From positions 1-56,787 of IMG/VR virus record IMGVR_UViG_3300028610_000868: a stretch of DNA of 56,787 nucleotides; one strand, written 5' to 3'. The position numbers were made by a program, and so were the translations under genes. This document shows, in pieces, positions 6,942-25,679 of this stretch; positions within the stretch are counted from its first letter, which is position 1, and every line of letters begins with the position of its first letter. The DNA comes from a virus. A model generated the notes under the pieces. The model was given only the letters and a program-made list of their open reading frames with translations, was not told the origin of the DNA and ran no database searches.

Positions 6942-7952
6942 TTAGAATGCGATAATGTCTGGCAGGAAGTCAATATCAGGTTTAAGTAATGGGTCTAACT
7001 TATTTAAGTTACCAGCAAGTGGACCAACAAAAGTTCCTATCGTATCAATTACAGGAATATTTGGTATTACGTCTAACCTACGAACTCTCCTTACAAGGCG
7101 CTCTGCATCAACCACCTTACCTCTTATATCGTTTAAGGTAAACGTATTTTTCTCTGGTTCTGGAGTTATTATTTTAGCGTCATCAGTTGGAGAATTAATA
7201 TACACGGAGTCATATACAAAGTTCATCATTAGGGTATTAATATCAGATTGCCCCATATCTAATTCATCAAGTGTCATGTTGATAACCTTTGGGTTTAAGA
7301 AATGATAATCAACATATTGATGGTTCTCGGCATTTTCTCCCTCTCCACCGCGCCGTTCTATTTGGCTAAAGAACCAATGTCTAATGGTGATGGTTTCGAT
7401 AAGTCCACTCTCTCCACCAGAAAGCACGCCGGGGGGCAATGGTCCTATAGATCCAGTACTAACCCTACTATTTTCTGAGGAGTTAAATCCTTTATTTTTT
7501 GGGCCTGCCTTTTCAGTGAATAGTTGATTTGCCAAAGCTGGGGGAGCATTAGCGATAGGGCTAATGCCTTTTAAGTAAGATTCATATACATTATGTGCAA
7601 CATTACCAACATCGTCATAAAATGTAACTTGCATTGTTCCGTAATCCATTTTGGTTGCAACTTTGGTTCTATAATTGTAAAAATTCACATCCACATAATT
7701 AACCGTGGGGATTGGGCGTGAGGCTTGTTTAATAGAGAAAGTTACGATGTCCGTAAGGTTATTTGTGGTCATAGACGCTTGTAGGCTATTACCTATTGGT
7801 GGCCTGAATTTAAGGGATACCGTAAAGTTAAATTTAAGCTTTGGCCGTTTAATAGTGGTGAACATATCTACCACCGGGGCATCACCGTCACCACCAGATA
7901 TATCTGGTCTACGGGATAATAGTCTGAATCTGCCTTTGTTACTATCAGCCAT
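6942..7952 (-). CDS. Tail-tube-fold protein, probably baseplate tube initiator (gp54-like)
   Basis: This 336-residue protein belongs to the gp19/gp54 tube superfamily by pattern: an N-terminal strand FNFTVSLKF, then VTFSIKQASRPIPTVNYVDVNFYNYRTKVATK and a MQVTFYDDVGN strand. A second half (about 185-250) carries IETITIRHWFF and DYHFLNPKVINMTLDELD. It is much longer than the neighbouring 197-residue gp19, close to T4 gp54 (320 residues), which starts tube growth on the baseplate. A late promoter TATAAATA lies 25-32 bp upstream. A gp19 paralogue of another role is the alternative. Confidence 0.65.
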   Translation of the reverse strand: MADSNKGRFRLLSRRPDISGGDGDAPVVDMFTTIKRPKLKFNFTVSLKFRPPIGNSLQASMTTNNLTDIVTFSIKQASRPIPTVNYVDVNFYNYRTKVATKMDYGTMQVTFYDDVGNVAHNVYESYLKGISPIANAPPALANQLFTEKAGPKNKGFNSSENSRVSTGSIGPLPPGVLSGGESGLIETITIRHWFFSQIERRGGEGENAENHQYVDYHFLNPKVINMTLDELDMGQSDINTLMMNFVYDSVYINSPTDDAKIITPEPEKNTFTLNDIRGKVVDAERLVRRVRRLDVIPNIPVIDTIGTFVGPLAGNLNKLDPLLKPDIDFLPDIIAF

Positions 7953-8032: not shown

Positions 8033-8626
8033 TTATAATATGAAGCCACTTCCTGAGGAACCAGCACCGCCAGTAGCTTTACCGGAAACACCGTCAGGGT
8101 TAATATTCTGACGTGCATGGTCAAATCGGAAAGTAACCGTTACCTTCACAGATTCAGATGCTGCATAATCTAGGTCAGTGAAGTCAACGTTCTGTATGAA
8201 CGCGCCTTCCAAAATCCATGTTTCAACAACAGATGTATTACCATCCAGTAAGTCCATCTTAATAGCAAATTTATAATCCTGTCCAGATGGTGCAGAAGGC
8301 AAACGTGGGGCCGCAGTCAAACCAATAATACTTTGCTGTAGCTCTAGTTGTTCTTGTAATGCTGCCGTTACACCACCGTTCAAATCGTCTTCAAAGGTGA
8401 TATTAACTGGCTCAAAGATGTGTTTACCAGCAACATATCCCTTAGAGTTGTAACGATCTAGTACAACCTCTTCGAATTGTAGTTTAGGGCGGTCGGCACT
8501 TATTGCGTTCAAACGAAGCGGTTCAGAGTCACCAGCCATATTTTGAAACGTTATTGCCCACTTGTGTTTTAGGCGCGGTTGGGCAATTCCACCACCATCT
8601 ACGCCTAAGTCAGTAATTAATGCCAT
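8033..8626 (-). CDS. 19: Tail tube protein gp19
   Basis: This 197-residue protein forms the inner tube through which DNA leaves the head. Its composition and order fit the gp19 family: an N-terminal RLKHKWAITFQNM strand, KLQFEEVVLDRYNSKGYVAGKH with the typical tryptophan-free loop, FEPVNITFEDDL, then a hydrophobic ILEGAFIQNVDFTDLDYAASESVKVTVTFRFDHA. The length is near the 163 residues of T4 gp19 plus a Gly/Ser-rich C-terminal tail. It lies in the late block with its own TATAAATA promoter. Confidence 0.88.
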   Translation of the reverse strand: MALITDLGVDGGGIAQPRLKHKWAITFQNMAGDSEPLRLNAISADRPKLQFEEVVLDRYNSKGYVAGKHIFEPVNITFEDDLNGGVTAALQEQLELQQSIIGLTAAPRLPSAPSGQDYKFAIKMDLLDGNTSVVETWILEGAFIQNVDFTDLDYAASESVKVTVTFRFDHARQNINPDGVSGKATGGAGSSGSGFIL

Positions 8627-9629: not shown

Positions 9630-11756
9630 TTATCTTATAATAGCATCGGTCCTAACAAGGCGAAGATCAACAAGAATGAACTCAACCGCTTGAACAGGCT
9701 TGATAGCTATGTCAACGATCAATTCACTACGAGCAACTACTGCCGGTGGATTATTTTGATCGTCAACCTGAGTAGCAAAATCAAATAATCCTCGACGGCC
9801 TACTAGTTCCCCTAAGAAGCTATCGACAGCCGCTTTAACATTTTGTCGTGTAATATCATCATTTGGTTCAAACAAGAAATCAAACAACCTACGGCGTAAA
9901 GTTCTGCGGATGTAAGCAGTAAGTCTGGACACGTTAACACGGTCTAATGCATCTGCTGTGGACTGTGTGGTGTTCTGAGCCAAAAGCAAGATTCCACGGT
10001 TAATGATATCGGAGAAATAATTGATATCAACAGCAAATAAGGTATCCTGTGTGCCTTTGTCTATATCATTTTCAACCCATGTCGTTGCAGTCCCTAAAAT
10101 ACCGGATACGTATCCAATGGATGTTAGGTGTGTTGCTGTACCCCGGTTTGGTCCTGCTGGTGCAAACCACAATTCGCCATCCCTATCATTGATGGCATAG
10201 GCACGTAGTGCGGATGAAGCACCGGTAGTCATGATTTCTACACCATCCGTGTTGGATGATAGACCATGTGGGTAGTAGTAAGCAGAAAGATTACTGAAAA
10301 CCTTGTTATCATCTTGCCAGCTAACTATACCATTTGCTCCAGTTGGTGGACGATCAAACGGTGTATCAGCAATGACAAATACTTCGCCGTCCATATCTTC
10401 AGCAAGTCTAACTAGTTCGTCTGTTGATTCCCAATAGCCGGGAGTCAAAGTTAAGTTAAAATCAAAACGATCTGAGCGGAAAATGCTGTTCGGGTTATTT
10501 ATTGATGCTTGAAGCTGTGTATTGATTGATACTCTACGTTCTGCATCGTTTGAACCAAGAGAAATTTCGTTCTTAAACTCCAGAGTGTTGTCGTAATTTG
10601 CAGCTTCTGCAATAAGCACTCCTTCTGCTTCATCAGCATCGAACTCGGTGGCAACAATGCTACCCGCTGTCCATGTGTCTAAAACTGAATCCAAACCATC
10701 ATACGTTGTTACAACAACGGCGAAAGCATCGTCATAAACGGATAATGGTGCAGCACCTTGACCACTAATTGGTGTATCAATTGATACGAAGAGGTTTGTG
10801 TTCAACCACAATGCGGTTGTACCACTGGAGCCATCTGCTGTAATTTCAACAGAAGAGGTTGCTCCCGATAAACCAGATGTAATACGGATTTTACCGGCAA
10901 TAATTTCAACTACTGTACCAGCATCACCCGTTACGCCCTGAATTGCAGATTCTACTTCAGAGATAAGCTCTGAAAAGTTCTGCATATCTTGACCGGCAAC
11001 GGAAACAACAAAGGAGTTAGTTCCCCCATTATCCGATACGGTTATTTCAAAACCATACAGAGTGGTGTCATTGGTTAGACCAGTATTATCAAGACCGGAG
11101 ATGTTACCTGCGTCAGTGTTGTAAGAAACTTCTTGGAAACCAGCCCTATCAATGGTATGGTCAAAGATAAAGCCTTCTTGGAATGCTGTGGTACTAAAGG
11201 AATATGATGCAAAAACGTCTACCATAGATGTATCAACAAGAGTTTTAAGCTCGGCGGATGTAACGGTTTCTTTGTAGCCGGGGGATGCCGGGACTAAACC
11301 ATTAGCAACGTTGGATTCTGCTATGAAATCTGCTACTAATTCGTTCAAATAATCGGCAGCAGCAGAAATCTTGGTGGCCCATACTAATTTTACGTTTGCG
11401 TATGTATCATCTAGGTTTACGTTTGCTCGAACAACGAATGCTCGTTCCCCAATTTCAAGGAACTTGTTTAGTGCGTCTACGCCATATTCGTTTCGGGCAT
11501 CGCCGTGTTGTGCTTGTGCCGCAGCATCTACTAGGAAACGCGGTGTTCCATAAAGTTCTGCCGACTGAGCCAAACCTGTAACAGTACGAACAACATCATG
11601 TTCGAAAGTTCCCAATGCTGCTGATACCCCATCCGACTGGAGTTTTTCATCCGCTGTAGCGATGAAAATTAGAGGTACGGTGGCTTGACGGCCCGGAATG
11701 AAAAAAGATTCTCCGATTACGTCTACTGCCACGCCGGGGCTGACTAAAGTTGCCAT
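9630..11756 (-). CDS. 18: Tail sheath protein gp18
   Basis: This 708-residue protein is the contractile sheath subunit. The N-terminus ATLVSPGVAVDVIGES is typical of myovirus sheath proteins. The C-terminal third has the conserved assembly region, with GILLLAQNTTQS, DALDRVNVSRLTAYIRRTLRR and FLFEPND, then the strand KPVQAVEFILVDLRLVR. It is longer than T4 gp18 (659). Part of the extra length may be residues about 217-330, a threonine/glycine-rich module that closely resembles one in the giant protein at 12618-22715. A CATAAATA late promoter lies 37-44 bp upstream. Confidence 0.95.
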   Translation of the reverse strand: MATLVSPGVAVDVIGESFFIPGRQATVPLIFIATADEKLQSDGVSAALGTFEHDVVRTVTGLAQSAELYGTPRFLVDAAAQAQHGDARNEYGVDALNKFLEIGERAFVVRANVNLDDTYANVKLVWATKISAAADYLNELVADFIAESNVANGLVPASPGYKETVTSAELKTLVDTSMVDVFASYSFSTTAFQEGFIFDHTIDRAGFQEVSYNTDAGNISGLDNTGLTNDTTLYGFEITVSDNGGTNSFVVSVAGQDMQNFSELISEVESAIQGVTGDAGTVVEIIAGKIRITSGLSGATSSVEITADGSSGTTALWLNTNLFVSIDTPISGQGAAPLSVYDDAFAVVVTTYDGLDSVLDTWTAGSIVATEFDADEAEGVLIAEAANYDNTLEFKNEISLGSNDAERRVSINTQLQASINNPNSIFRSDRFDFNLTLTPGYWESTDELVRLAEDMDGEVFVIADTPFDRPPTGANGIVSWQDDNKVFSNLSAYYYPHGLSSNTDGVEIMTTGASSALRAYAINDRDGELWFAPAGPNRGTATHLTSIGYVSGILGTATTWVENDIDKGTQDTLFAVDINYFSDIINRGILLLAQNTTQSTADALDRVNVSRLTAYIRRTLRRRLFDFLFEPNDDITRQNVKAAVDSFLGELVGRRGLFDFATQVDDQNNPPAVVARSELIVDIAIKPVQAVEFILVDLRLVRTDAIIR

Positions 11757-11834: not shown

Positions 11835-12599
11835 CTAAGAACTATCTTCCCAATTATCTGTGGTTATGATAAATGGATCAAGATTCCCTTCATTTATAGA
11901 GGATGGCGTTTCGGAGAGGTCATCAGTTATTGCAACTCGAATTTGGATTTCTTTGATTATTTCGTCTCTCAGATTTACAGGGGCTGATAGATACAGACAA
12001 TATGTAAATAACAAAGTTGAAGATACTATCCTATTATCGGTACCAGCCGGATAATCTTCATCCAAACTGATAGATTGAAGAAATACTTCAATTACACTCT
12101 GTTGGTTACCGTATGCGTCTGATACTTGAATTTGTATTGATGGGTTAAACAGGAGTAATATTTGCTCCAATAATTGAAAATGTTGATCAGTATTTGATGT
12201 GTTTACGGCTAATTCCATGGAAACGTTATATGGAACAGGCTTAAGCATGGTGTGCTGTTGTAAATCATCCGGTATAGAACCGCCTCTTTTAAGTTTTATT
12301 TCCTTTCGTTCTTGGTTTTGCCCAGATAACCGATCCGTAAACAGTTCCAACCCCATTAACTGGGCACTCATTATGGGTAGTCGTACCATCTTGTTTTGGG
12401 TCTGATCAGAGAAAATATGGGAAACCACACGGTCACGACTGCCGTAGACAACAGGAACAGTCATGAGATTTGTTTGAGAAGCAAAATCATTCTTCCCCAC
12501 AGAAACCTTTAGCCCAGCAAATACGGCCATAAACTGCACGATATGCTTGCGGAGCTGCTTGTTATAATAATAGTTTTCTACTGAAATATCTGTGTTCAT
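11835..12599 (-). CDS. 15: Tail sheath stabiliser / tail completion protein gp15
   Basis: This 254-residue protein matches T4 gp15 (272 residues), which caps the tail and joins it to the head. Shared pattern: ENYYYNKQLRKHIVQFMAVF near the N-terminus, TVPVVYGSRDRV (T4 RVPITYASKEH), KPVPYNVSMELAVNTSN and FQLLEQILLLFNPSIQ (T4 MFQIVEQILPYFQPHF). It ends with TAG, the only standard-length gene I read in the window to do so. A suppressed TAG would add 12 residues before TAA. The TATAAATA motif lies only 5 bp before the ATG, so transcription from it would leave almost no leader. Confidence 0.9.
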   Translation of the reverse strand: MNTDISVENYYYNKQLRKHIVQFMAVFAGLKVSVGKNDFASQTNLMTVPVVYGSRDRVVSHIFSDQTQNKMVRLPIMSAQLMGLELFTDRLSGQNQERKEIKLKRGGSIPDDLQQHTMLKPVPYNVSMELAVNTSNTDQHFQLLEQILLLFNPSIQIQVSDAYGNQQSVIEVFLQSISLDEDYPAGTDNRIVSSTLLFTYCLYLSAPVNLRDEIIKEIQIRVAITDDLSETPSSINEGNLDPFIITTDNWEDSS

Positions 12600-12617: not shown

Positions 12618-15600
12618 TTACACCTGTCTATAATGTGGGCCGCTGCCGCCGCCACCACCGCTATAATATGGGTATCCAATTTCAATGTTAATATCAGGGT
12701 CAATCAACACTAGATGAACAATTCCCATATAAACAGCATTTAGTGTTCCATTGATAGCGGGATTTCCTGTTGGTGCAGAACCTATTTTATGAACTGCCCA
12801 CATATCTAAAGCGACTGTTTGTGTATATATTGAAGAATTTTCTTCTATTAACCACTGTCTAGTATCTGTCATATTTAGCCACGTATCACGCAAATCTGAC
12901 TCTGAGGTAAACGAAACACCATCATTTTGAACAACCGTTGCATAAATATACAAATCATCATAAGTTGCTGGTGGTGCATCATTTACATCAACACCAGAAC
13001 TTTCCCACCATGGATTCATTCTGGAAAGATCATCACCATTGTTTCTCCACCAGTATCCACGGCGTAGGGTTGTCGCTGCACTTCCTCCAACTTTGAAACC
13101 GACAATGGTGCTATCCGACGCAGCGTATACCGGGGAGGCATTACTACTCCACGGAAGCAGTGTAATTGTTCCAGACGAACTTGCCGGTGTAACAACAGGC
13201 GTAGTTGTTGGTGTTACCGTCGGTGGTGGCCCAGAAGCAGGAGGTTCGGTTGGTGTATTGCTCGGCGTAAGGGTAACCGTAGGCGTAACATTCGGCGTGG
13301 CGGTGTTTGTCGGAGTCACAGCCGGTGTTCTCGTAGGAGTCACTGGCGGTGTATTACTGACAGATGGTGTCTTCGAAGGTGTTACCTGTGGCGTGTTTGT
13401 CGGAGTCACAGCCGGTGTTCTCGTAGGTGTTGGTGGTGGCGTACTTGACACCCCAATTGTTGGTGTTACGCTTGGTGTCTGTGTTGGGACCGGAGTCTTT
13501 GTTGGTTCTGTGGTTACTGATGGAGTTACTGTCAAAGTTGGTGTTGGTGTTGCGCTAGAACCAATGGTCGGTGTCACAGAAATCGTTGGTGTCACAGATG
13601 GTGTTGGTGTTGGTGTTGGTATAACACCATCAATTGGGTCACCATCATATTCGAAGCCCAGCATAGATTCTGTTATATTATTCCATAGATCGATATCAAT
13701 CTTTGATAATTGCCGTTCGCGGAACATTTTCCATTCATCATGCACATTTTTGCGGTGCATTTCACCACCTTTAGGATTAAGCCTATGGGCGAATGATAGG
13801 TCAGGAGTTAATCTGTCACGTAATGAAAAATCTCTAATGAAACGTAAAGTGTATGCGTTGTTTGCTTGAACATTATCATCAAGTCCTTTGATTATTAATT
13901 GGTTGTATCCAAACGGATATTCGTATGACAACATGATATCCGGGTTAACCCGCGTTGGATCAAATAAGGACAACAGCTCATTAAACGCTGTTCCTTTCAA
14001 ATCAACAGGATTATTGGGGATCATGTATGGGGTTGGGATAGTTTCTATTCCTTCCTTTGCCGTTTTAAGAGTTGTTTTATTCGTGAATCCACCACGAAGA
14101 GGAACATCACTTAGTCTGTTTTCAACCCAGAAATAATATGTGAGGACTTCATTTCCCGTGTTTGGGTTTATGCTATTATAAACACTGTATGGGGTATCTA
14201 GTTTATAAAGAATTGCATCTATTTCTTCCTGTGTTGGAGTCGATGCCGGTGCAATAACATGTATCAATTTACCGGGTAGAGTTGCCCGGAAATTATTAAA
14301 TTCAATGCCAGATCCAAAAGATTGTGTTGAGTGGTATACACCATCTACATAAACAAACACATCTGTGTTTAACGAACCCCCCGCGTCTGTGTATGTGCTG
14401 TTCTCTATTGTTTCATTAACAAAATCAAAGTGTTCGTCTCTTTCTTCTACCCAAGTTGGAACTTCTTCTGTTCCATCATTGCGGTAAACAACCGTTCTAG
14501 TTGTCCCGCTTTTTCTATCAGATATAGGTATTGTGGCATCGTTTTCCTGAATCACTGCTTCATCATATTCAGAAGGTGGTAAATCAGATTCTGTCCATTG
14601 AAATAGATTGATCTCCCCCCAGTTAGCTAATGTTCCCCAGTTTTGGAAACGGATGTTTTTATTTGATTCAACGTTTTTATCATCATATGGCAAATAACCT
14701 TCGGAATTAGTATCAAACCAAACGATGTCTTTCTTGTCAGAATGCCAAAAATTGTCTAGACCAGTAGAACCATCTGCTGGAGAATTGTATCTTGCCGGAT
14801 CAATATTTTGTCTACGGTCTACCACTGCGATAGCTTTAGAATAGTATTGTTGACGGGCAGGGTTCCATATTGATATCTCTGTAACTACCTCTCCTGCTTG
14901 CCTATTGATAATGCTGGCCGGATTCTGTGCCTCGTAATTGTAACCTAAAGTAATCACAAAAATTGTGTTCGAACTAGGTTTGAATGTTCCATGTGTAAAT
15001 TTTATTAGGGTGTTAGTTACAAATTCAAACCCATTTCCTTCATCGAGAATATTAATAGTTGACCATGGATCTGCCGGAGTTAAAAGAACCCCAACCCATG
15101 CTGCATCCGCAGCATGTTCTAATCGTAGATATTCTTCTCCGTTTGCTGTGAAATATCCGGGTTCACCATATCCAGCAACAGGCGCTGCACCAACATCCTC
15201 ATAATATTCCAAGGGAACAGTTGTGAAATATATCCTGTCTCGTGGGGATAACTTCTCAGCTTGATCTGGCTGATCAAACCAACGAGTACTGTCATCCAGT
15301 GTTATTGGTATAAATGTAATATCCGAAACACCAACGTCAGAAGAAGGATCTTTAAATTCTAAACGTAGTTCATTGCGCACCACATCATTTGTAAACAATC
15401 TCATTTCTGGATATATTTTTTCTTTGGAATCCCCAAAAGTGCCCAAGCGATATGCCCAGAACTCATCTATAATGAGCTGGTTATATGCCACTTGGTTAGA
15501 GAAAGCATTTGCTGCAAAGTTAGTTCCTTTTTTCTGAATCATCCCCCGATAAAATGTGAACTGTGCTTTATCAGTTATACCAATATCATCAGCATAATCA

Positions 15601-18600
15601 AATGGCCCCTCATATCCAAGAGCTTTTCTAACCCTTTTTGTGATGTCATCTCCCTCCTTTGATCGGTGGGGGCTATATGCTCTTCGTAGAGATTCAATTG
15701 CGGATTCAATATTTTGAATTTGTGTTCTATCCAGAACAACATTACCACCAACGTTTGGACGAAGCGTAAACCCTTCTTGTCTGTCAAATTCTAAAGAAAC
15801 CCGTGGAATATTAATTCCTAAGAAAGGATCGTATAATAAAAGACCGGCAGTACTATAATTTTCAAATTGTAGAATGTGCTCATACCCGTCAAAAAATAAA
15901 TGCATCCCTTGCATAGTTATAACATCATCGGTATTTTCTAAATTTGCTTGTCTTCTACTATTTGACAACTCAATTTGAGTTTGTATATCTCTCCTGCTAA
16001 CAATGATATCATTGGAAGACAAATTATTATTATTCTTGTCATATATTCGCTGATCAGTGATAAGATCTAATTTGGTTCCCTCTAGAACATTAGATAAAAT
16101 TCCTGTCTCGTGTTGTATAGTTACAGAATTTCCGTGTGGATTCAATGTTATTGTTGGTAGACGTGTTGAATCAACAGCGATATTTAATATAATATCACCA
16201 CTACCATTATCAGAAAATGTTATATTTGATCCATTTCTGGCGTGAGCTTCAGACGCTGCTAATTGAAATACACCACTTGTTGCGGTTTTAATAATATAAT
16301 ATGGTATGCTGTCTGCTATTGGGTTTTCAAATTCTGCTGGCAACGTGCCCTCTGGGGAAGTTAATGTTACAAGAGTTCCGGTAACCCATGTAACATTTTC
16401 TGGGCCAACAAAAGTATCACTTATATGTTCTGGTACTACTACAAATTCTTCTGGCAATGTTTGTGTTCGTCTACGAGTGTTGTATATGAATTCAATCAGT
16501 TGCTCTGTGGACATCTGCCAATCGTTGATTTTACCAGTATTTTGATCTCGGTTGGTACTGTCGGTATCAGTGTATAATACACCCTGACTCTCAAGATAAC
16601 TACCATATCCGTTGATAAAGTCAACCATATTCTGGACACCAGAGATGGTGATTGGAGTTGGATGCTCTTGCACCACGCGGTCATCTATGAAATGTTGTTT
16701 CCAATATTGTAGAACTGATCTTGCGGAGAAAGCAGTAAAACTATTCTTTACTCTGCCAATATACTGCTGTTCACTTCCTTCATTTACCGGGGATATGGAA
16801 TTAGTTCCGTTGATAGCATCTTCCCTTGTTGGAGTTAATCTAAATTCTCTATCATTGTCCCTTATCAGATAGTACAGTTTTGTTGTCCCAAACACTTCAA
16901 AGTCGGCAGGGTCACCATATGCCGGGGTAATCCCGTTTGAGCCCCAAGTAACACCAATCCCCGTTATCCATGTATCGGGCATGTCAACCGCAGTTTCTGG
17001 CTCTAAATATCCATCGACTGTATTATCGGTAATTATGTATTCCTCATTAACTTCAATCCTAGTACGCCTCTCCGTTGGGCTATAGAAAGAAGATACTACA
17101 GTGTATGTTCCATTAAAGTTTGTGGAATCAATTAAATCAAAGGATGTTCGAGGAGGGAAAAATTTAACAACATTGTCCTTGACATAGAAAATCTTATCAA
17201 ACGTAATAGTGCTGAATTGATTTCCTGTTGTTCCACCATAAGTTATACCAGAAGGAGTAGCCGTTACAAACAAATCAGTATCAGTGATAACCACCGACGT
17301 TGTTCCACCAATGGTATTGCTGGAAATCATAAGGTTACCATCTCGTATTGATATGATACCATATGGATCGCTTGGATCATTTATTTGAATATTTATTTCA
17401 TCAATCAACTCTTCAAATGTCTGGGCATCACTTCCCTCAATAGATAGGGGGAAAGCGAATGCACCATTAAATAATATCGATGCCGAGTATACCGTGGAAT
17501 CATTTGCTAATCCAGTTGCTGTTTCTAATGAAATAGTCTCAGAATAGTTAACCATATCAAATCCAAAACTATCTTGAGTTAATGCGTCATCAAGTTTAAA
17601 ACTAAATATCTTAAATGGTGGGTTTGGACTTAATACATCCCGTGATAGGGCACGTACTGGATAACTTTGCACACCAAACGTTTCAATTGGGCGACCAACG
17701 GGTGACGAATTATCAAAACTCACCGTCCAACCTAATCCAGAATCATTTTCGTTTGCAAACGAAGATGGAGTAGATAGGAGTGTGGTTATTAGTGAGTCTA
17801 TCCAGAGATCTCGTATTCCAGATGTTTTCTTGAACAGAATTCCATAGTCACGATCAGTGGGATCAAAAAGAGTGCTGCTTAATTTAAAATTATCTGTGTC
17901 AATAAATGCAGAGAATTGATATGTTAACGGTACTGTCCAATCCTTCCACATTTTTCTGAATTCTGATGATACACCATCAAACCCACTGTATCGGTTAAAG
18001 TGAATGTACCATTGGTTTAATCCGTTTACTTGAAAGAGATTGCCATCAATATCAACATCTCCATGAAAAACAATATCCAAATGACTACGAACTTTATTTA
18101 CTATGTCCGTTACTTGTAAACAAACAACATCTACCAAATCCAAACCAAAGGACTGGTTAAAAAATTTAAGTGGTTGTAATTTAAATGCAACAATTAATTC
18201 ATCGTATAAGCGGTTGGAAGATATTGACCATGCCCACTCTGATGGTCCCAACTGCCCATAAACATAATCAGCATTAGGTGTAACAATAAATTCATTTAAT
18301 GCAGCATCAAAAAGGCCACGCACAGCTACGTTTACTGAGTTATTACTGTTCCAGTATGGCGGCAGAACGGCATCTGGAACATACCCATCCAGCGTGTCAG
18401 TAGCTTCCATATTAACTGGAATGTAAGTGAACAAGATGGTTATTTGCCCAGCGATACCAGTTCCAGCGTCACCATTTGGTGCATCGTATCCAATTGGAAC
18501 AATTCCAGTTAGGATGTTTGTCCACATTGCCGCAAGCCACTTGCGTGTTAGAGTTGGGTCTAAATACTCCGCATCCCACCAAGTTGGTTTCGTTATATAC

Positions 18601-21600
18601 CCTTGTAATACCCACGGCTCCAAATGCGGCAATGGTGTTCCATATACGTTGTTATATAGTGCTTCCCAATGGGCGATATCATTAGATGTTTCCAATCCCG
18701 TTACGGGATCAGTTGTGATATCAGTATACGCATAGTTCCATGTGAACGGATTGTTTTGCACGTATCCAGAATTGGTGAGGGGGGTTTGGATGTTTAACTC
18801 TCTCACATATCGGGAAAACTGCTCTTGTGATTTAAGATCATATGCAATATCATTTTGTGTAATGGAAAAATCAAATTTTGATGTAAAGTTAGGTGGTGTT
18901 GCCCCACTACCCAAAATTGAAAATAAGTCTTCTTCAACCCCCAACAATATGTTGGCATACAATAGTGTAATATCCAGCTCTTCCCAAACACTCAACGAGT
19001 TTAGGCGATACAGCGTTCTTGTTGACGCGGAAACATCTACTTCAATAACTAAATCTCCAGTTTCAACTGGATTATCGTCAATTAATGTTGGGAATGGATC
19101 TCCAACATTTATTGTTTCTAATGTGGTGTTTAGGGAAATTGTGTTAAATAAAATTGATAGTGCTGCTTGATTGAAATTAACATCCAGCCGGTGACCATCA
19201 TGGTGTACTAACTGCAAAATTTCTGTTGCTTCATCTATAAGTAGGTACGGTGTAAGTGATTGGGCAAGACCAAAGAAAGGAATGGTTGCTATCCAATTTT
19301 TTATACCTGCGCTGGTTGTTAAATCCCAAGTTGTACTATCGCCAAACCACTGGTCCAGCCTATCGTTTCTTTCAAATACAGTTTTAAGTTCTGCCTTAAC
19401 GTATGTAGTCAGATCCTCAACATTATTAATGCCTGACTGGTTCAGATAATCCACTATATTGGCACTTAACATTTCACGTAAGCCATTCTGTAGTGAGTCA
19501 TATTGTGCGTTGGCAAAAGATATAATATCAATCGGATTGGTGTTATTAACAAACATAGATGAAATAAGGGTATCCATTCCATCATTGTGTTCTTTGATGC
19601 TGCCCCCAAGTCCATAATTAACGGCTTGGTCTATATGATAAAAATTATTAAACCCACTATTAGATACGCCAATTGCTGTTTGTGCATCAATGATTGTACT
19701 AAAATGCCGGAAAATATCAGTCAGATTTACGTTTTTTCTGTTTTCGTGACTTACATTGAAATATAGTTGGTTTGGTATTTCCCAGAAACCATCAGCAACT
19801 ACCGGAATATATTGCTCCTTGCCAAGGCCGTGTTTCCATATGCTTTGATACTCGTTGTTTAGTTCTCTAGTATCATAATAGATGTATAACTCACCAGTTT
19901 CATCATCAACTAGCCCTTGTTCAAATTGATAATCTTGTGCGGGTTCATCAAAATCTATTTTCTGATCAATGGTGAGGAAGTACTCACCATCTTCTGCATC
20001 TCTGTATCGGAACAGATTGCTTGCAAAAATAAATGGTTCATTATGTATATCGTATACATTGAACCACGGGTACTGGGCTCTTTCTGATTTAACTTGTTCT
20101 ATCCTTCTGGTATCGACCAAGTTGAATAGTTCTACCCCAGATCCGGTGTTTACAATAACTGCTCTCTTGCCAATGTCCTCAATATCATATTCACCAAGTT
20201 CTATTCGTATAATGTCATCTTCTGTAATTTCAAACGTGGGTGCAAATATGATTCCCCCGGTGTAATCTGGGCTAAAATCAGATTGAACATCATTAAAATT
20301 ACCATACTGGCGAACATCATTAATGTATACCCTAATATCACCTTCTTGATAATCCTCAAACAAACACAAATCATGCAAAGAAGAATCAAGTATGAGCAAC
20401 GCTCCAAAGATTGATGATCCGCCGGATAAAATTTTAAATTCTTGATATGCCAATCCCCAAAGGGTTGCTTTGGTTGCATCAGTACTACTTCCCACAAAAT
20501 CACTTAGCATAGGGTTAGGTGTGGGTTCAACGCTTGACGCCAAAATGTTTTCAAGTCCTTGGAACTGCCAATGATAAGTTTCAACAGATATCCAATTATC
20601 ACCCAAAGAGGTCGTTATTGGTGCTATATATGACCCTAAATCCACTGGATCACCCGGTGCTGGTATGGGTGTTTCTAAGAACATGCGGGTGACCCAACGA
20701 GAGTTTGGGGTTAGTTGAACAAACTCTGAGGATGCTACGTTTCTTTCACCAGTATTGAAACCAAAACTCCCAAATTTTATAGATACACCTTCAGTGAGGT
20801 CTGCTGTCAAATTTCCAAATTTATGATGAAACAGAATCGTTGTACCGTCTACGATAGTTATTTCGTCTCCATCAACTACCGTCGTGTCTATGATTTCGAA
20901 GAGTGTTGGTTCCTGTGTTGTGTCGGCATATGATACTTCGGTATTCCTACGATATTTCCATGTTTTATCAGCATATGAATGATGTGATAATTTAACAAAT
21001 GGAAAGTATTCTATTATTGGCTGTTGGGCTCTTAGTTTTCCTGTAAAGCTGTTTATCTCTGTGATATGAATCCATTTGTTTTCATCAACCCAATCATTAT
21101 TTTGTGCTAAATCAATAAGATGAGCGTCATTGTTAATGTCTATTAAATATGAGTAACCATCTAGCATTACATCCCACGCGGAGAGGACACCCCATCTTTT
21201 CAGTTGATCATTAGCGGTATCATACCAAAGTTGTCCAACCGAAAGAGCTGGTGGTTCCGTATCGCCTTCCATATCTGTTAACACTCGCTCACGAACGATG
21301 TCATATGATATTGCAGTTTGATCGAAGAACACACGGTCCAAGCCAAGTTGATCTGATGTTAGCAAGTTTTCAATTATATAATCACCGGCAATACCCGTGT
21401 CATTAATTCGTAGAATGTCCCCTACCCGATATGTGCCATCTAAAAAATCTTTAGCCCCATTCGTGTCGGTGAACACGTTAGAGCCTAACGTTGTTCCATC
21501 TAGTCCGTTGGTGGTTCTACTTAATAGGCTAATGTGTTTAACCCAAATGATATCGCCCATTTCATTATCGACACTGGCTTCCGCAAGGGATTGTGGAAAC

Positions 21601-22715
21601 ACTGAAAGTGAAAATGGGCCTCTACTATAAGGGGCATTGCAAATTTCGTTGTATTCAGATTCTACTGAGCGTATTAACGGCTTGGTGGATATTCGTGTCC
21701 AATCAAACTCGGCGTCCGTGAAGTCTTCTGTTACTATGATTGAAGTAACGTTGTCCACTATATGAACTTCGCGTGTTTCAACACGCCAAAGCCTAATCGG
21801 TTGCGCAGTTGCGCTATCTTCGGTAGCAAACACATAATCTTTTGTAAACAAGTCAGTAAAGTCACCATCCACAAAGATCTTTCTACGATCTGCATCTATT
21901 CCTGTTATTGGCAATTCAGTATTAGATACCTGCCCATAAATATCATTGACCCCCAGCACAATATCATAATCCCCTGTATCAAACACAAGATCAGTGGTGT
22001 TATCTAGAACGTTATATGACGAAGCGAGTACTTTTGCTGCTATAGGATTCACTAAAGCCCCAGACAAAATAGCAAGTTCTCCATCTCTAAATGTTGTAGT
22101 TAAGTTTTCTTCAACTTCGACAGTGTTAGTAAATTCGTCATAACTCACGATAGTGTGAATTGGCATTGATGTGGTAACTGCACGTAAAGTTTGTGTGTAA
22201 CGCGCTTCTACCCAATTACAGTGATTTTTAATTGTAATATATTGTGGTGGATCATTGAGATCGGTTGATGCCCAAAAATAGTCTTGGTAATTGATTAATT
22301 TGTCTATGTCTATAGGCGGAATCCAGTTGAATTGGAGACTGCTTCCCCATTCATTAAATCGGTCAAGATCCACGCCCAGTAAGGCTAACCTGTTCATAAA
22401 ATCTTGGAACGATAGGAACCAGTCGAGGTTACCAACCTTATCATATACAATTGGCTGAAGCTGATTTGCTTGTCTATACTCGGTTGGTTCAATTATCTGA
22501 CGTAATTCTGTGATAATTGATTCGTCTAGAGATCCTATAATACCTACGATTCGTTCCACTTCATCTTTAGTAAAGAACCGGTTAAACAGATTATGGTTTA
22601 GCCCTTCCAATAACTTAGCATTATCCAAGTTAATTGCTGGAAGCAGCTTATTTAAATCTGTTCCGGGTTTATTATAATCTGAAAGATTCTTGGCGCTCAC
22701 GAAAACCTCATACAC
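12618..22715 (-). CDS. Giant baseplate/tail-fibre protein (gp7 position), 3365 residues
   Basis: One uninterrupted frame encodes 3365 residues directly downstream of gp6, the place of gp7 in T4 (1032 residues). The N-terminal 150 residues are helical (KNLSDYNKPGTDLNKLLP, then FNWIPPIDIDKL). Most of the rest is beta-rich with repeated YDTANDQLKRW-like and IDINNDAHLIDL-like units. Residues about 1725-1830 match a module in the sheath protein. Residues about 3030-3190 are a Pro/Thr repeat tract, followed by a final domain of about 170 residues rich in Trp/Tyr/Gly that ends in YYSGGGGGSG. It is probably a virion baseplate wedge/fibre component with an exposed tip. No specific family is assigned. 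Confidence 0.8.
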   Translation of the reverse strand: MYEVFVSAKNLSDYNKPGTDLNKLLPAINLDNAKLLEGLNHNLFNRFFTKDEVERIVGIIGSLDESIITELRQIIEPTEYRQANQLQPIVYDKVGNLDWFLSFQDFMNRLALLGVDLDRFNEWGSSLQFNWIPPIDIDKLINYQDYFWASTDLNDPPQYITIKNHCNWVEARYTQTLRAVTTSMPIHTIVSYDEFTNTVEVEENLTTTFRDGELAILSGALVNPIAAKVLASSYNVLDNTTDLVFDTGDYDIVLGVNDIYGQVSNTELPITGIDADRRKIFVDGDFTDLFTKDYVFATEDSATAQPIRLWRVETREVHIVDNVTSIIVTEDFTDAEFDWTRISTKPLIRSVESEYNEICNAPYSRGPFSLSVFPQSLAEASVDNEMGDIIWVKHISLLSRTTNGLDGTTLGSNVFTDTNGAKDFLDGTYRVGDILRINDTGIAGDYIIENLLTSDQLGLDRVFFDQTAISYDIVRERVLTDMEGDTEPPALSVGQLWYDTANDQLKRWGVLSAWDVMLDGYSYLIDINNDAHLIDLAQNNDWVDENKWIHITEINSFTGKLRAQQPIIEYFPFVKLSHHSYADKTWKYRRNTEVSYADTTQEPTLFEIIDTTVVDGDEITIVDGTTILFHHKFGNLTADLTEGVSIKFGSFGFNTGERNVASSEFVQLTPNSRWVTRMFLETPIPAPGDPVDLGSYIAPITTSLGDNWISVETYHWQFQGLENILASSVEPTPNPMLSDFVGSSTDATKATLWGLAYQEFKILSGGSSIFGALLILDSSLHDLCLFEDYQEGDIRVYINDVRQYGNFNDVQSDFSPDYTGGIIFAPTFEITEDDIIRIELGEYDIEDIGKRAVIVNTGSGVELFNLVDTRRIEQVKSERAQYPWFNVYDIHNEPFIFASNLFRYRDAEDGEYFLTIDQKIDFDEPAQDYQFEQGLVDDETGELYIYYDTRELNNEYQSIWKHGLGKEQYIPVVADGFWEIPNQLYFNVSHENRKNVNLTDIFRHFSTIIDAQTAIGVSNSGFNNFYHIDQAVNYGLGGSIKEHNDGMDTLISSMFVNNTNPIDIISFANAQYDSLQNGLREMLSANIVDYLNQSGINNVEDLTTYVKAELKTVFERNDRLDQWFGDSTTWDLTTSAGIKNWIATIPFFGLAQSLTPYLLIDEATEILQLVHHDGHRLDVNFNQAALSILFNTISLNTTLETINVGDPFPTLIDDNPVETGDLVIEVDVSASTRTLYRLNSLSVWEELDITLLYANILLGVEEDLFSILGSGATPPNFTSKFDFSITQNDIAYDLKSQEQFSRYVRELNIQTPLTNSGYVQNNPFTWNYAYTDITTDPVTGLETSNDIAHWEALYNNVYGTPLPHLEPWVLQGYITKPTWWDAEYLDPTLTRKWLAAMWTNILTGIVPIGYDAPNGDAGTGIAGQITILFTYIPVNMEATDTLDGYVPDAVLPPYWNSNNSVNVAVRGLFDAALNEFIVTPNADYVYGQLGPSEWAWSISSNRLYDELIVAFKLQPLKFFNQSFGLDLVDVVCLQVTDIVNKVRSHLDIVFHGDVDIDGNLFQVNGLNQWYIHFNRYSGFDGVSSEFRKMWKDWTVPLTYQFSAFIDTDNFKLSSTLFDPTDRDYGILFKKTSGIRDLWIDSLITTLLSTPSSFANENDSGLGWTVSFDNSSPVGRPIETFGVQSYPVRALSRDVLSPNPPFKIFSFKLDDALTQDSFGFDMVNYSETISLETATGLANDSTVYSASILFNGAFAFPLSIEGSDAQTFEELIDEINIQINDPSDPYGIISIRDGNLMISSNTIGGTTSVVITDTDLFVTATPSGITYGGTTGNQFSTITFDKIFYVKDNVVKFFPPRTSFDLIDSTNFNGTYTVVSSFYSPTERRTRIEVNEEYIITDNTVDGYLEPETAVDMPDTWITGIGVTWGSNGITPAYGDPADFEVFGTTKLYYLIRDNDREFRLTPTREDAINGTNSISPVNEGSEQQYIGRVKNSFTAFSARSVLQYWKQHFIDDRVVQEHPTPITISGVQNMVDFINGYGSYLESQGVLYTDTDSTNRDQNTGKINDWQMSTEQLIEFIYNTRRRTQTLPEEFVVVPEHISDTFVGPENVTWVTGTLVTLTSPEGTLPAEFENPIADSIPYYIIKTATSGVFQLAASEAHARNGSNITFSDNGSGDIILNIAVDSTRLPTITLNPHGNSVTIQHETGILSNVLEGTKLDLITDQRIYDKNNNNLSSNDIIVSRRDIQTQIELSNSRRQANLENTDDVITMQGMHLFFDGYEHILQFENYSTAGLLLYDPFLGINIPRVSLEFDRQEGFTLRPNVGGNVVLDRTQIQNIESAIESLRRAYSPHRSKEGDDITKRVRKALGYEGPFDYADDIGITDKAQFTFYRGMIQKKGTNFAANAFSNQVAYNQLIIDEFWAYRLGTFGDSKEKIYPEMRLFTNDVVRNELRLEFKDPSSDVGVSDITFIPITLDDSTRWFDQPDQAEKLSPRDRIYFTTVPLEYYEDVGAAPVAGYGEPGYFTANGEEYLRLEHAADAAWVGVLLTPADPWSTINILDEGNGFEFVTNTLIKFTHGTFKPSSNTIFVITLGYNYEAQNPASIINRQAGEVVTEISIWNPARQQYYSKAIAVVDRRQNIDPARYNSPADGSTGLDNFWHSDKKDIVWFDTNSEGYLPYDDKNVESNKNIRFQNWGTLANWGEINLFQWTESDLPPSEYDEAVIQENDATIPISDRKSGTTRTVVYRNDGTEEVPTWVEERDEHFDFVNETIENSTYTDAGGSLNTDVFVYVDGVYHSTQSFGSGIEFNNFRATLPGKLIHVIAPASTPTQEEIDAILYKLDTPYSVYNSINPNTGNEVLTYYFWVENRLSDVPLRGGFTNKTTLKTAKEGIETIPTPYMIPNNPVDLKGTAFNELLSLFDPTRVNPDIMLSYEYPFGYNQLIIKGLDDNVQANNAYTLRFIRDFSLRDRLTPDLSFAHRLNPKGGEMHRKNVHDEWKMFRERQLSKIDIDLWNNITESMLGFEYDGDPIDGVIPTPTPTPSVTPTISVTPTIGSSATPTPTLTVTPSVTTEPTKTPVPTQTPSVTPTIGVSSTPPPTPTRTPAVTPTNTPQVTPSKTPSVSNTPPVTPTRTPAVTPTNTATPNVTPTVTLTPSNTPTEPPASGPPPTVTPTTTPVVTPASSSGTITLLPWSSNASPVYAASDSTIVGFKVGGSAATTLRRGYWWRNNGDDLSRMNPWWESSGVDVNDAPPATYDDLYIYATVVQNDGVSFTSESDLRDTWLNMTDTRQWLIEENSSIYTQTVALDMWAVHKIGSAPTGNPAINGTLNAVYMGIVHLVLIDPDINIEIGYPYYSGGGGGSGPHYRQV
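13135..13630. repeat. Minisatellite-like Pro/Thr-coding repeat tract
   Basis: The DNA is an imperfect 12-18 bp repeat built on GGTGTTNNNGTNGG. It encodes TPTxTPxVTP-type repeats in the giant protein. One 35-bp unit occurs exactly at 13303-13337 and at 13393-13427, a 90-bp period. It codes for a flexible, probably extended linker before the C-terminal domain. Confidence 0.85.
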
Positions 22716-22772: not shown

Positions 22773-25679
22773 TTACTGGCGAAGAGTTTGGGGATCTAAA
22801 GACTCCACTATTTCCACTTGGTCAACGGTGAAATCAACCTGAATTATTTCATCTTCTCGTGATAGTACTTGATATAAGTCACCAAATTCATTTGTGTTAA
22901 GTATCGGAACCAATACAACAGAATCCAGTGCTGTGGGTAAGGTAGAATGAATGAATGCTGACAGTTCTGAAAAATAGAAAGTTTCACCAAATTCCCATAA
23001 TCTTATATCAAAAAATTCAATTACTGCATCTACTATACTCGTCTTAATCTGATTATTACTGAGACTGCGGTCAGCAGAACGAATAACTTTGATTGTTGCT
23101 TGAACTTCTGTAGCAGCATTGGAACCAAACAATATCTTGATATTACCCGGATGTAATATCACAGTATCCGATATCATTTTATTTTCCAATAGCTCTTGAT
23201 AATCCCCTCTAAGCTGGAATGGTGTTGGTGCTTCTGGTTCAGCAGATAGATTACCATTTAGCCATAATCTAAGATTTCTAGCGTACCCACGGGTTATAAC
23301 ATACATATCTACAATATTAGAAGAGGCAGGATCTATTAAATGATACCTTGGTGTTCGGTGAAACCATGCAAAGTTGATTCCTTCCTTACCATTTTCTCTC
23401 TTCCATAATTGGTCCACTTGGTTTGGATTGATTGCCTGATCTTCATTCCATTCCTCTTCCGGGTTGATACTTTGATATGCGGTTTGGAAAACCCACGGAT
23501 CATTGATTGTTTCCCTGTTAAAATAAACATAGTCTGTCGGGCCAAAGAGATAAGCTAGATCAACATCATCTGGGATGCCGTCACCATTGGCATCATCCGG
23601 CATGATATATAATTTGTTAATATCGATCAATCCAGTATTTTCTCCGGTGTCTATTATTACTTGTCCCAATACATCAAAATCATAATTTTGTGTTAACAGG
23701 GCAGAAGCACCGGTATTAGCCATCAGTACAACCACTGTATCAAGATTGGTATTCAGAGTATCGGTGGTTATAACCGAGCCATCGCTAACATTCCAAAATT
23801 TTGTCTCTTGGCTATGAAAAATTATGCGTATTGATTCATAACATAGTTCCCAATCCGTACCAGCTAAAGAGGAAACACTGAACCAGTATTCGGTGCCAGT
23901 TAAGTCTTCCACCCATGCTGACCCGTTGAAATCAAAATATTTGGTGGACGGTTTATTATTAGTAGCGTCCACTAATCTACTTTCTATAAGAGTCCGTTCA
24001 GTTTCTGTGAACTCAGTTTTAATGGCCGTAGGTGCTATGCCCTCAATTATAAAGCGAGTAAAGAAAGCCCCAGAAGATAACAACGGTTCAATATGGTTGT
24101 CAATTAATGAGGCAATCAATGCTTCGTGATTTGGTGGATCTTCATCAGGAAGCACACTTGAATAGATGGTTTCACATATTTCGTCAACGTCATCCTCAAC
24201 GTTGAAGTATATCACCCCATCATCTCCAAATATCTTTACATTATCATAGCTTTCACTTGGGTCATGCCATGGAATGTACTTTGAGTCCCCAGCAAATGTT
24301 CGGTTAACTGACCGCAATTTTAAAATGGTGTTATCTTGTAATAAGAATTCATTATAATCACGCCCATTAACCATACGGTCTTGTGTGTAATACACCGCTG
24401 GTGCTGTTTTTCGTATATGCTCTATATCCTCTGATGGAGCAGAATTTTGAATTGGGGTTAACAGTGACACGGTTAAATTAAAGGTTTGCTCTTTGGCCTC
24501 GGGGTCATTGTATGTGAACGAACTTCCAACATCTTGTATAGCCGTTGTGGGAATTGGATTATCTGTGTTGGCCGATTCTCTTGACCATATTTCAAATGTT
24601 CCGTTTGGTATGTTTGCAAATTTTCCGTCACCAAATATCACACGGAACTGATCATCATCCAACGTCTCAATTTCATATCTGTTTCTGTTTGTTTCACTGG
24701 TGAACACAATGTTTTGTCCACCAGCCGTATCAACCTCTATCCATTCTCCGAGACGAGTTTCAGCGTTGAAATCCTCACTATCCTCTAGAATTTCCCCGGT
24801 GTCTGGATCAATATTATTAATGAAGATGTCAGTTTCGTTACTGTTTGAAAGAAGAACATCATATGTTTGGTTGGGGGTTATACCATCAAAAGATGTCTCA
24901 GTACGGGAAAGTGTACCTTGTTTCGTATACATGAAAAATCCGGTGTTCTCTGAAGAATCTCCCAATCCGTCATTCAAATATAAAACACCGAGGTTCAAAT
25001 CTTTTTCTGGCCTTGTTTCTAATGGGCCAAATTCATTTAAATCAGAACCAACTAATTCCATTGGTAATGTTTCACTTGAAACTGTGATTGAGTATGGAAG
25101 GGTGTTAGTTGATAGGGAACTATTGATAAATTTATACTTCTCAAATAATACGTCTTGAACTTGTACCCGGTCAGATGGTGAGACAACCCCAAACTGTTGA
25201 TCCAACACCCTATTCATAATTAGGATAAACTGTTCTTTCCAATTATCATTGTTAGTGTCATTCCAGCGTATTGTGGAATTGGACAAATCATTGCCAGCCG
25301 AATCAAACACGCGCTCAGTGGTGCTGACGCTGGTTAATTTAACTAATCCTCTGGCAGGTATGTTTCTATTAGAGTTGTAAGACAGTAACTTAGCTAAACG
25401 CAGGATGGATTCTTTTCTTTCAGCAGTAGAAATAAAATTCTCGTGGGCATTCATATCAAAACGATATGCATCCAATTCTGCCAAATATGCAAATAGTTCA
25501 AGAAGAGCAACTAGTTCAGAGCTTTCTATAAAGTCATTAAATTCTTCAGGATAGTATAATTTCAGATAATCAAGCATGGACTCCTTAATTGTCTGGAAAT
25601 CCCATGCAGCAAAATTAACTTGTTGAAAAGCCTCATATGCTCTTTCCCAATTTTCTGCTCTGTTTATAACTCTAGTCAT
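22773..25679 (-). CDS. 6: Baseplate wedge subunit gp6
   Basis: This 968-residue protein matches the gp6/gpJ family. The first 120 residues carry the family signature: FAAWDFQTIKESMLDYLK, FNDFIESSELVALLELFAY, LDAYRFDMNAHENFISTA and RKESILRLAKLLSYN. Later come a 'YTQDRMVNGRDYNEFLL' segment (about 435-450) and a C-terminal gpJ-like region (IKVIRSADRSLSNNQIKTSIVDAV, then FYFSELSAFIHSTLP). T4 gp6 is 660 residues, so this one carries extra middle domains. It forms the ring that changes conformation when the sheath contracts. It follows gp25 by 23 bp. Confidence 0.95.
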   Translation of the reverse strand: MTRVINRAENWERAYEAFQQVNFAAWDFQTIKESMLDYLKLYYPEEFNDFIESSELVALLELFAYLAELDAYRFDMNAHENFISTAERKESILRLAKLLSYNSNRNIPARGLVKLTSVSTTERVFDSAGNDLSNSTIRWNDTNNDNWKEQFILIMNRVLDQQFGVVSPSDRVQVQDVLFEKYKFINSSLSTNTLPYSITVSSETLPMELVGSDLNEFGPLETRPEKDLNLGVLYLNDGLGDSSENTGFFMYTKQGTLSRTETSFDGITPNQTYDVLLSNSNETDIFINNIDPDTGEILEDSEDFNAETRLGEWIEVDTAGGQNIVFTSETNRNRYEIETLDDDQFRVIFGDGKFANIPNGTFEIWSRESANTDNPIPTTAIQDVGSSFTYNDPEAKEQTFNLTVSLLTPIQNSAPSEDIEHIRKTAPAVYYTQDRMVNGRDYNEFLLQDNTILKLRSVNRTFAGDSKYIPWHDPSESYDNVKIFGDDGVIYFNVEDDVDEICETIYSSVLPDEDPPNHEALIASLIDNHIEPLLSSGAFFTRFIIEGIAPTAIKTEFTETERTLIESRLVDATNNKPSTKYFDFNGSAWVEDLTGTEYWFSVSSLAGTDWELCYESIRIIFHSQETKFWNVSDGSVITTDTLNTNLDTVVVLMANTGASALLTQNYDFDVLGQVIIDTGENTGLIDINKLYIMPDDANGDGIPDDVDLAYLFGPTDYVYFNRETINDPWVFQTAYQSINPEEEWNEDQAINPNQVDQLWKRENGKEGINFAWFHRTPRYHLIDPASSNIVDMYVITRGYARNLRLWLNGNLSAEPEAPTPFQLRGDYQELLENKMISDTVILHPGNIKILFGSNAATEVQATIKVIRSADRSLSNNQIKTSIVDAVIEFFDIRLWEFGETFYFSELSAFIHSTLPTALDSVVLVPILNTNEFGDLYQVLSREDEIIQVDFTVDQVEIVESLDPQTLRQ

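Follow-up and report, generated by a model that had tools for sequence, protein, structure and literature searches.

The locus lies in a viral record 56,787 bases long, hereafter the window, which is a 56.8-kb fragment that groups with XacN1, RAS14, and CM1, all of them jumbo phages. Its tail sheath protein shares ~50% identity with those of this group over 99% of the length, and its giant virion protein shares 37–38% identity over the whole length searched. The genes and segments concerned are as follows.

9630–11756, minus strand: contractile tail sheath protein, 708 aa (Pfam Phage_sheath_1C, E 3.7e-12; phrog_10581, E 3.5e-130; AF2 model vs. solved sheaths, Z 33)
10779–11147, minus strand: sheath insertion module, FliD/flagellin-IN-like, residues ~204–326 (predicted strands; profile match 10815–11141)
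11835–12599, minus strand: tail sheath stabilizer, gp15-like, without module (phrog_227, E 1.3e-38)
12618–22715, minus strand: giant virion structural protein, 3365 aa (phrog_10938 virion structural protein, E 1.4e-80; orthologs in XacN1, RAS14, and CM1)
17220–17576, minus strand: module of the giant protein, residues 1714–1832 (profile match 17262–17564; pLDDT 94.8; FliD Z 9.4)
22773–25679, minus strand: gp6-type baseplate wedge, 968 aa, without module (phrog_10646, E 2.6e-291)

The stabilizer gene is the sole gene between the sheath and giant-protein genes, and the wedge gene adjoins the giant gene on the side away from the stabilizer. From this position beside a gp6-type wedge, the giant protein is plausibly a baseplate protein. 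Its C-terminal part (about 13140–13630, minus strand) contains a Pro/Thr linker of the PTPTPSVTPT type, after which comes a tail that looks globular, and a 276-aa plus-strand ORF at 13039–13869 is apparently mere antisense of this part. Two phrog_4542 tail-tube-like genes lie side by side at 6942–7952 and 8033–8626 (minus strand); in the longer one (336 aa) the match is confined to residues 29–127.

Sheath and giant-protein segments

The original prediction held that the sheath and the giant protein share a domain. BLASTP of the whole proteins returned a single significant segment, sheath residues 201–306 against giant-protein residues 1713–1811 (37% identity, 55 bits, E 4e-11), with TGLTND at sheath residue 225 and TGLAND at giant-protein residue 1734, so that the proposed motif text and coordinates were right to about a dozen residues. 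The proposed sheath span, 10770–11105, locates the domain correctly but on its 5' side starts slightly inside it, as the predicted strands place the full unit at about 10779–11147. A profile of nine modules has exactly two matches in the window, at 10815–11141 (E 2.5e-35) and 17262–17564 (E 5.5e-37), E-values that are not independent because both window copies were built into the profile. As an independent test, a pairwise comparison of sheath-only and giant-only module profiles aligned 104 columns with P 2e-28 and a probability of 99.8. Judged by these comparisons, the two segments are one homologous domain, which covers residues ~206–313 in the sheath and ~1718–1818 in the giant protein, and chance is excluded. 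Near-invariant residues of the module are Tyr, Ser, Gly, and Leu, and no catalytic-looking residues were found among its conserved positions.

Predicted fold and flagellar sequence links

AlphaFold models of the two copies were built from separate alignments, the giant module in isolation (residues 1714–1832, pLDDT 94.8) and the sheath module within the full sheath, whose model aligns with solved sheath cores at up to Z 33 (residues 23–707). The predicted elements are strands 6–11, 29–36, and 40–47, helix 54–65, strands 73–78, 81–86, and 95–99, helix 102–106, and strand 113–118 in the giant module, and strands 204–212, 233–242, and 245–254, helix 261–276, and strands 282–286, 289–297, and 302–307 in the sheath. 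Both models thus contain a common strand-hairpin-helix-hairpin topology, identical in the two copies, and there is no sign of unrelated folds. The giant module aligns with FliD D2–D3 (5xlk_C) at Z 9.4 (rmsd 2.9, 105 residues) and with the insertion domain of the XM1 sheath at Z 9.2 (104 residues); FliD entries, together with sheath insertion domains, dominate the top of the structure-match list, and the E217 sheath, flagellins, FlgK, hook domains, and then the A-1(L), PhiTE, Mu, and Milano sheaths rank lower. Foldseek TM-scores against solved structures are moderate (0.4–0.57) and VIA Z-values of 8–9 lie only slightly over the level that tool calls common; the fold match therefore rests on the rank pattern and the sequence evidence together. 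Antibody and Ig chains appear in Foldseek from rank ~38 on only, at a probability of about 0.1, a weak match that does not in itself exclude an Ig fold. As modeled, the module superposes on FliD and belongs to the FliD D2–D3/flagellin insert fold, taken as a structural superfamily.

At the sequence level the link to flagellar proteins is fainter. One of the nine modules matches Flagellin_IN (PF07196), at E 3, and neither window protein does; the family cut-off is not reached, which places the module outside the Flagellin_IN sequence family. The predicted flagellin-type insertion repeat accordingly stands at the level of fold (FliD D2–D3, flagellin, FlgK) and with some sequence support, but not as PF07196 membership. 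No known family emerged when the module was searched by sequence against Pfam, PHROG, and PDB, and a pattern scan of bacterial genomes with the consensus module returned nothing. A Secretin_N hint (E 0.006) fell under the family cut-off, found no support in the fold search, and was rejected. A 65-row module profile, run against 299 Pseudomonadota genomes, gave ten matches at E <= 1e-3. Six are identifiable, five of them flagellar (FliD, FlgE, and three FlgK; best E 1e-6) and the sixth a phage sheath of the DUF3383 type; the other four are short or odd frames (L169, L170, L172, and L173) that look like chance and were set aside. Using hhalign, we aligned the module with 30 Flagellin_IN segments at P 4e-5 (prob 70). 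Taken together, these results are suggestive of common ancestry between the phage module and the flagellar domains.

It could be argued that a small Ser/Thr/Gly-rich alpha/beta fold arose separately in the two systems and that only the phage copies are mutually homologous. The modest strength of the flagellar alignment and the lack of a Flagellin_IN match at cut-off would fit such convergence. However, the reversed, composition-matched controls are empty (a smaller reversed profile of 24 rows had 0 matches in the 299 genomes, and the reversed hhalign control gave P 0.34), the hhalign register is the one that structure predicts, with helix on helix and hairpin on hairpin, and the Pfam DUF3383 sheath model independently matches residues 331–440 of the FlgE frame at E 1.7e-5, under the family cut-off. 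We regard convergence as unlikely, if still deserving of some weight. Capture of the module from host FliD or flagellin genes would likewise account for the FliD fold match, for the FliD, FlgK, and FlgE frames picked out by the phage profile, and for the Flagellin_IN alignment. Yet the flagellar link (E 1e-6 at best) is far weaker than that among phage copies (P 2e-28), so that any capture would be very old, and the fold is common to many unrelated sheaths (Mu, PhiTE, E217, A-1(L), Milano) as well as to DUF3383 sheaths. A host origin of this kind appears quite improbable to us.

Module copies in related phages

Eighty sheath relatives were fetched and ORFs classified by module count. About fifty sheaths carry one module and are mostly 690–750 aa long; two (L086 and L088) carry two modules at 822–831 aa, and three (L080, L083, and L087) carry three in tandem at 933–991 aa. 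In ten sheaths of 587–618 aa the module is missing and the remaining protein is aligned throughout. Sheath length rises by ~110–120 residues per added module. By these alignments, the module is an autonomous plug-in of the sheath. Its two insertion points flank a 'KxTVTxxEL...YSF' helix, the window type lying after it and the type represented by L062 before it. In three further sheath ORFs (L072, L085, and L091) the module's insertion place is taken by an unrelated GGTGTGA-type repeat (YTNVPLTGGTGTGAxAxVTVxGGAVTxVTV, residues ~150–270), so that the site serves as a hotspot where modules of different kinds insert.

The cultured phages XacN1 and RAS14, together with metagenomic records, served to check the multi-gene architecture. 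By profile search, one metagenomic record (G304) has 11 module matches in 8 reading frames and another (G305) has 8 in 7. The gp6-type wedges of these two records (L232 and L235; phrog_10646) are 1172–1186 aa long and contain the module, vs. the 968-aa wedge of the window, which is without it. A tail-fibre protein (L231, phrog_9729) and another fibre-like protein (L236) also contain copies, and three are present in a protein of ~600 residues. A further virion-region protein, XacN1 ORF329 (L005:14833–16041, 402 aa, phrog_11259) and its RAS14 counterpart (OP752703.1, 113080–113481), shows a single, weak match to the module (E 1e-9 by the iterated profile and 3e-4 with A4).

The copies in fibre-like proteins and wedges of some relatives could be taken to indicate a specific receptor- or glycan-binding domain for host adsorption, and an aid to adhesion has been speculated for extra sheath domains (PMC9230969). 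However, no typical binding-site motif was found in the module, its conserved positions look structural, and every sheath subunit along the tail would be an odd place for a specific binder. A dedicated receptor-binding function is, in our view, doubtful.

The head–tail adaptor (phrog_211) of XacN1, RAS14, and one metagenomic relative matches the first half of the module. Among 30 adaptor ORFs, 27 carry this match and three (two fragments and that of PA5oct) lack it; it invariably ends near module position 67. In a sliding-window profile comparison, adaptor residues ~151–230 match module columns 3–68 (P 1.4e-16) and residues ~641–710 match columns 76–119 (P 1e-7), and the scan of the adaptor alignment gave no strong match outside these two regions. 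The adaptor therefore holds one module split by an array of 'DPTxPxxGxxWYNPxxxxLxxWDGxxW' repeats, which fills the ~410 residues between the halves. The neck gene lies outside the 56.8-kb window, and for this reason the split copy is documented in relatives only. The repeat unit measures ~45–55 residues and occupies residues ~230–640 of XacN1 ORF268 (L021:3337–6270). A similar DPT-type unit occurs in the giant protein of the window (residues ~464–520, BLASTP E 5e-4), and another was seen by eye in the sheath insert of PA5oct; these occurrences in adaptor, giant protein, and sheath may point to a further reusable module that moves between the same genes.

Single-module tblastn searches against cultured phages gave no match other than XacN1, RAS14, and CM1, and the module profile had no match in PA5oct, RaK2, SCTP-2, Phosso, Atu_ph07, XaC1, 121Q, GAP32, or S-SKS1. 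In these searches the module was therefore seen, at the level of sequence, in this lineage only.

Descent, role, and known systems

XacN1 and RAS14 carry the module at orthologous places in both the sheath and the giant protein, and in XacN1 the two copies are ~39 kb apart. In a tree of 69 modules, one clade takes in all giant-protein copies (support 99/96), and sheath copies of the window type group in a separate one (100/98). The sheath modules of the window and of one relative (L001) are 84% alike, vs. only ~35–38% between sheath and giant-protein modules. These clades and orthologous places indicate that the sharing is old and vertically inherited. The exchange between two tail genes that had been proposed thus survives as an ancient event only. 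A recent swap or conversion between the copies, invited by genes separated in the window by the stabilizer alone and by their 37% identity, is highly improbable in view of the unchanged places in XacN1 despite the distance, the two separate clades, and the much closer likeness among sheath modules. Recent gene conversion is likewise rejected by the module tree, unless confined to very short stretches.

With a probability of about 0.8, we therefore consider the shared segment to be an autonomous accessory domain of ~105 residues, resembling FliD D2–D3, that derives from an old duplication or transfer, was inherited vertically, and later spread in relatives. Its unit would run strand, beta-hairpin, helix, beta-hairpin, strand, short helix, strand, plugged into the giant protein at residue ~1718, and the two copies of the window would descend from one ancestor by old duplication or between-gene transfer followed by vertical descent. 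In related jumbo phages the module was presumably duplicated in tandem, lost, and moved to the second sheath site; the gp6-type wedge, tail fibres, and the neck adaptor would likewise have acquired it, with a repeat array invading the adaptor copy. Of this reading, the homology, the predicted fold, the copy numbers, the orthologous places, and the split neck copy come directly from the comparisons above. In published sheath studies such domains lie at a distance from the tube (PMC9230969), and by analogy we infer that the module is exposed outward on the tail. The suggestion of a common surface-decoration module holds at the level of fold, FliD D2–D3 and sheath insertion domains being closest, and exposure is the part drawn from analogy. 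By the same analogy, its role would be surface decoration, as a non-catalytic decoration or spacer that may serve subunit–subunit contacts, virion stability, shielding, or perhaps weak adhesion.

More tentatively, and at somewhat less than even odds, a single mobile flagella-type block may be a general surface part of jumbo virions, used in sheath, neck, wedge, fibres, and giant proteins, in tandem and nested form, with the phage and flagellar versions sharing an ancestor. If true, surface domains of phage tails and of bacterial flagella would have a common origin. FliD-like sheath inserts have previously been isolated fold resemblances, in one case ascribed to a gift from the host. The series seen here at the sequence level, with 0–3 sheath copies, two sites, giant-protein orthologs, a split neck copy, and up to 11 copies per record, makes the growth of jumbo virions by domain copying directly traceable, and the lineage offers a sequence handle on the question of whether the surface domains of phage tails and flagella have a shared ancestry.

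The nearest known system is the insertion domain (InD) of the XM1 sheath gp6 (PDB 7KH1), which its authors found by Dali to be FliD D3-like, called unique, and proposed to be of host origin (PMC10457771). It resembles the present module as a domain inserted in a sheath with a FliD-like fold, to which the giant-module model aligns at the Z of 9.2 given above, but it is a single copy in the sheath only, whereas here sequence-homologous copies occur in several virion proteins, with none to three per sheath and one copy split. FliD D2–D3, PF07196, and flagellin D2 share the predicted fold and the order of elements, and perhaps a weak sequence similarity as gauged against controls; the module differs in sitting in a phage virion, under the Pfam cut-off, and with extra flanking strands. 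A FliD-like FD domain occurs in gp36, an auxiliary capsid protein of crAss001 (PMC10172136), and a 2025 paper lists the fold for FliD and flagellin as well as for phage sheaths, nozzles of podoviruses, and auxiliary capsid proteins, stating that the sheath domain has no direct part in contraction (PMC12846349). Evseev et al. (2022) described extra sheath domains as mostly Ig-like, located away from the tube, and more numerous in larger genomes (PMC9230969). The 'additional domain' of type 2/3 sheaths (PMC9230969), the fold of PMC12846349, and the crAss001 FD domain are, like the module, lateral beta-rich extra domains with a flanking helix that are shared across viruses; there the sharing is at fold level only and among unrelated proteins, while here it is sequence homology within one genome. 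The promiscuous Ig-like domains known from structural proteins of phages (Fraser et al. 2006, as cited in PMC9230969) appear similar as small surface domains moving among virion genes, but the module as modeled appears to have a different fold, its best matches being FliD and sheath insertion domains. In the open-licence literature we found no report of sequence-homologous copies in several virion proteins, of a 0–3 series, or of a nested neck copy. The FliD resemblance of sheath insertion domains is thus already published, and the sequence-level spread through the virion, the copy series, and the nested copy appear to be new.
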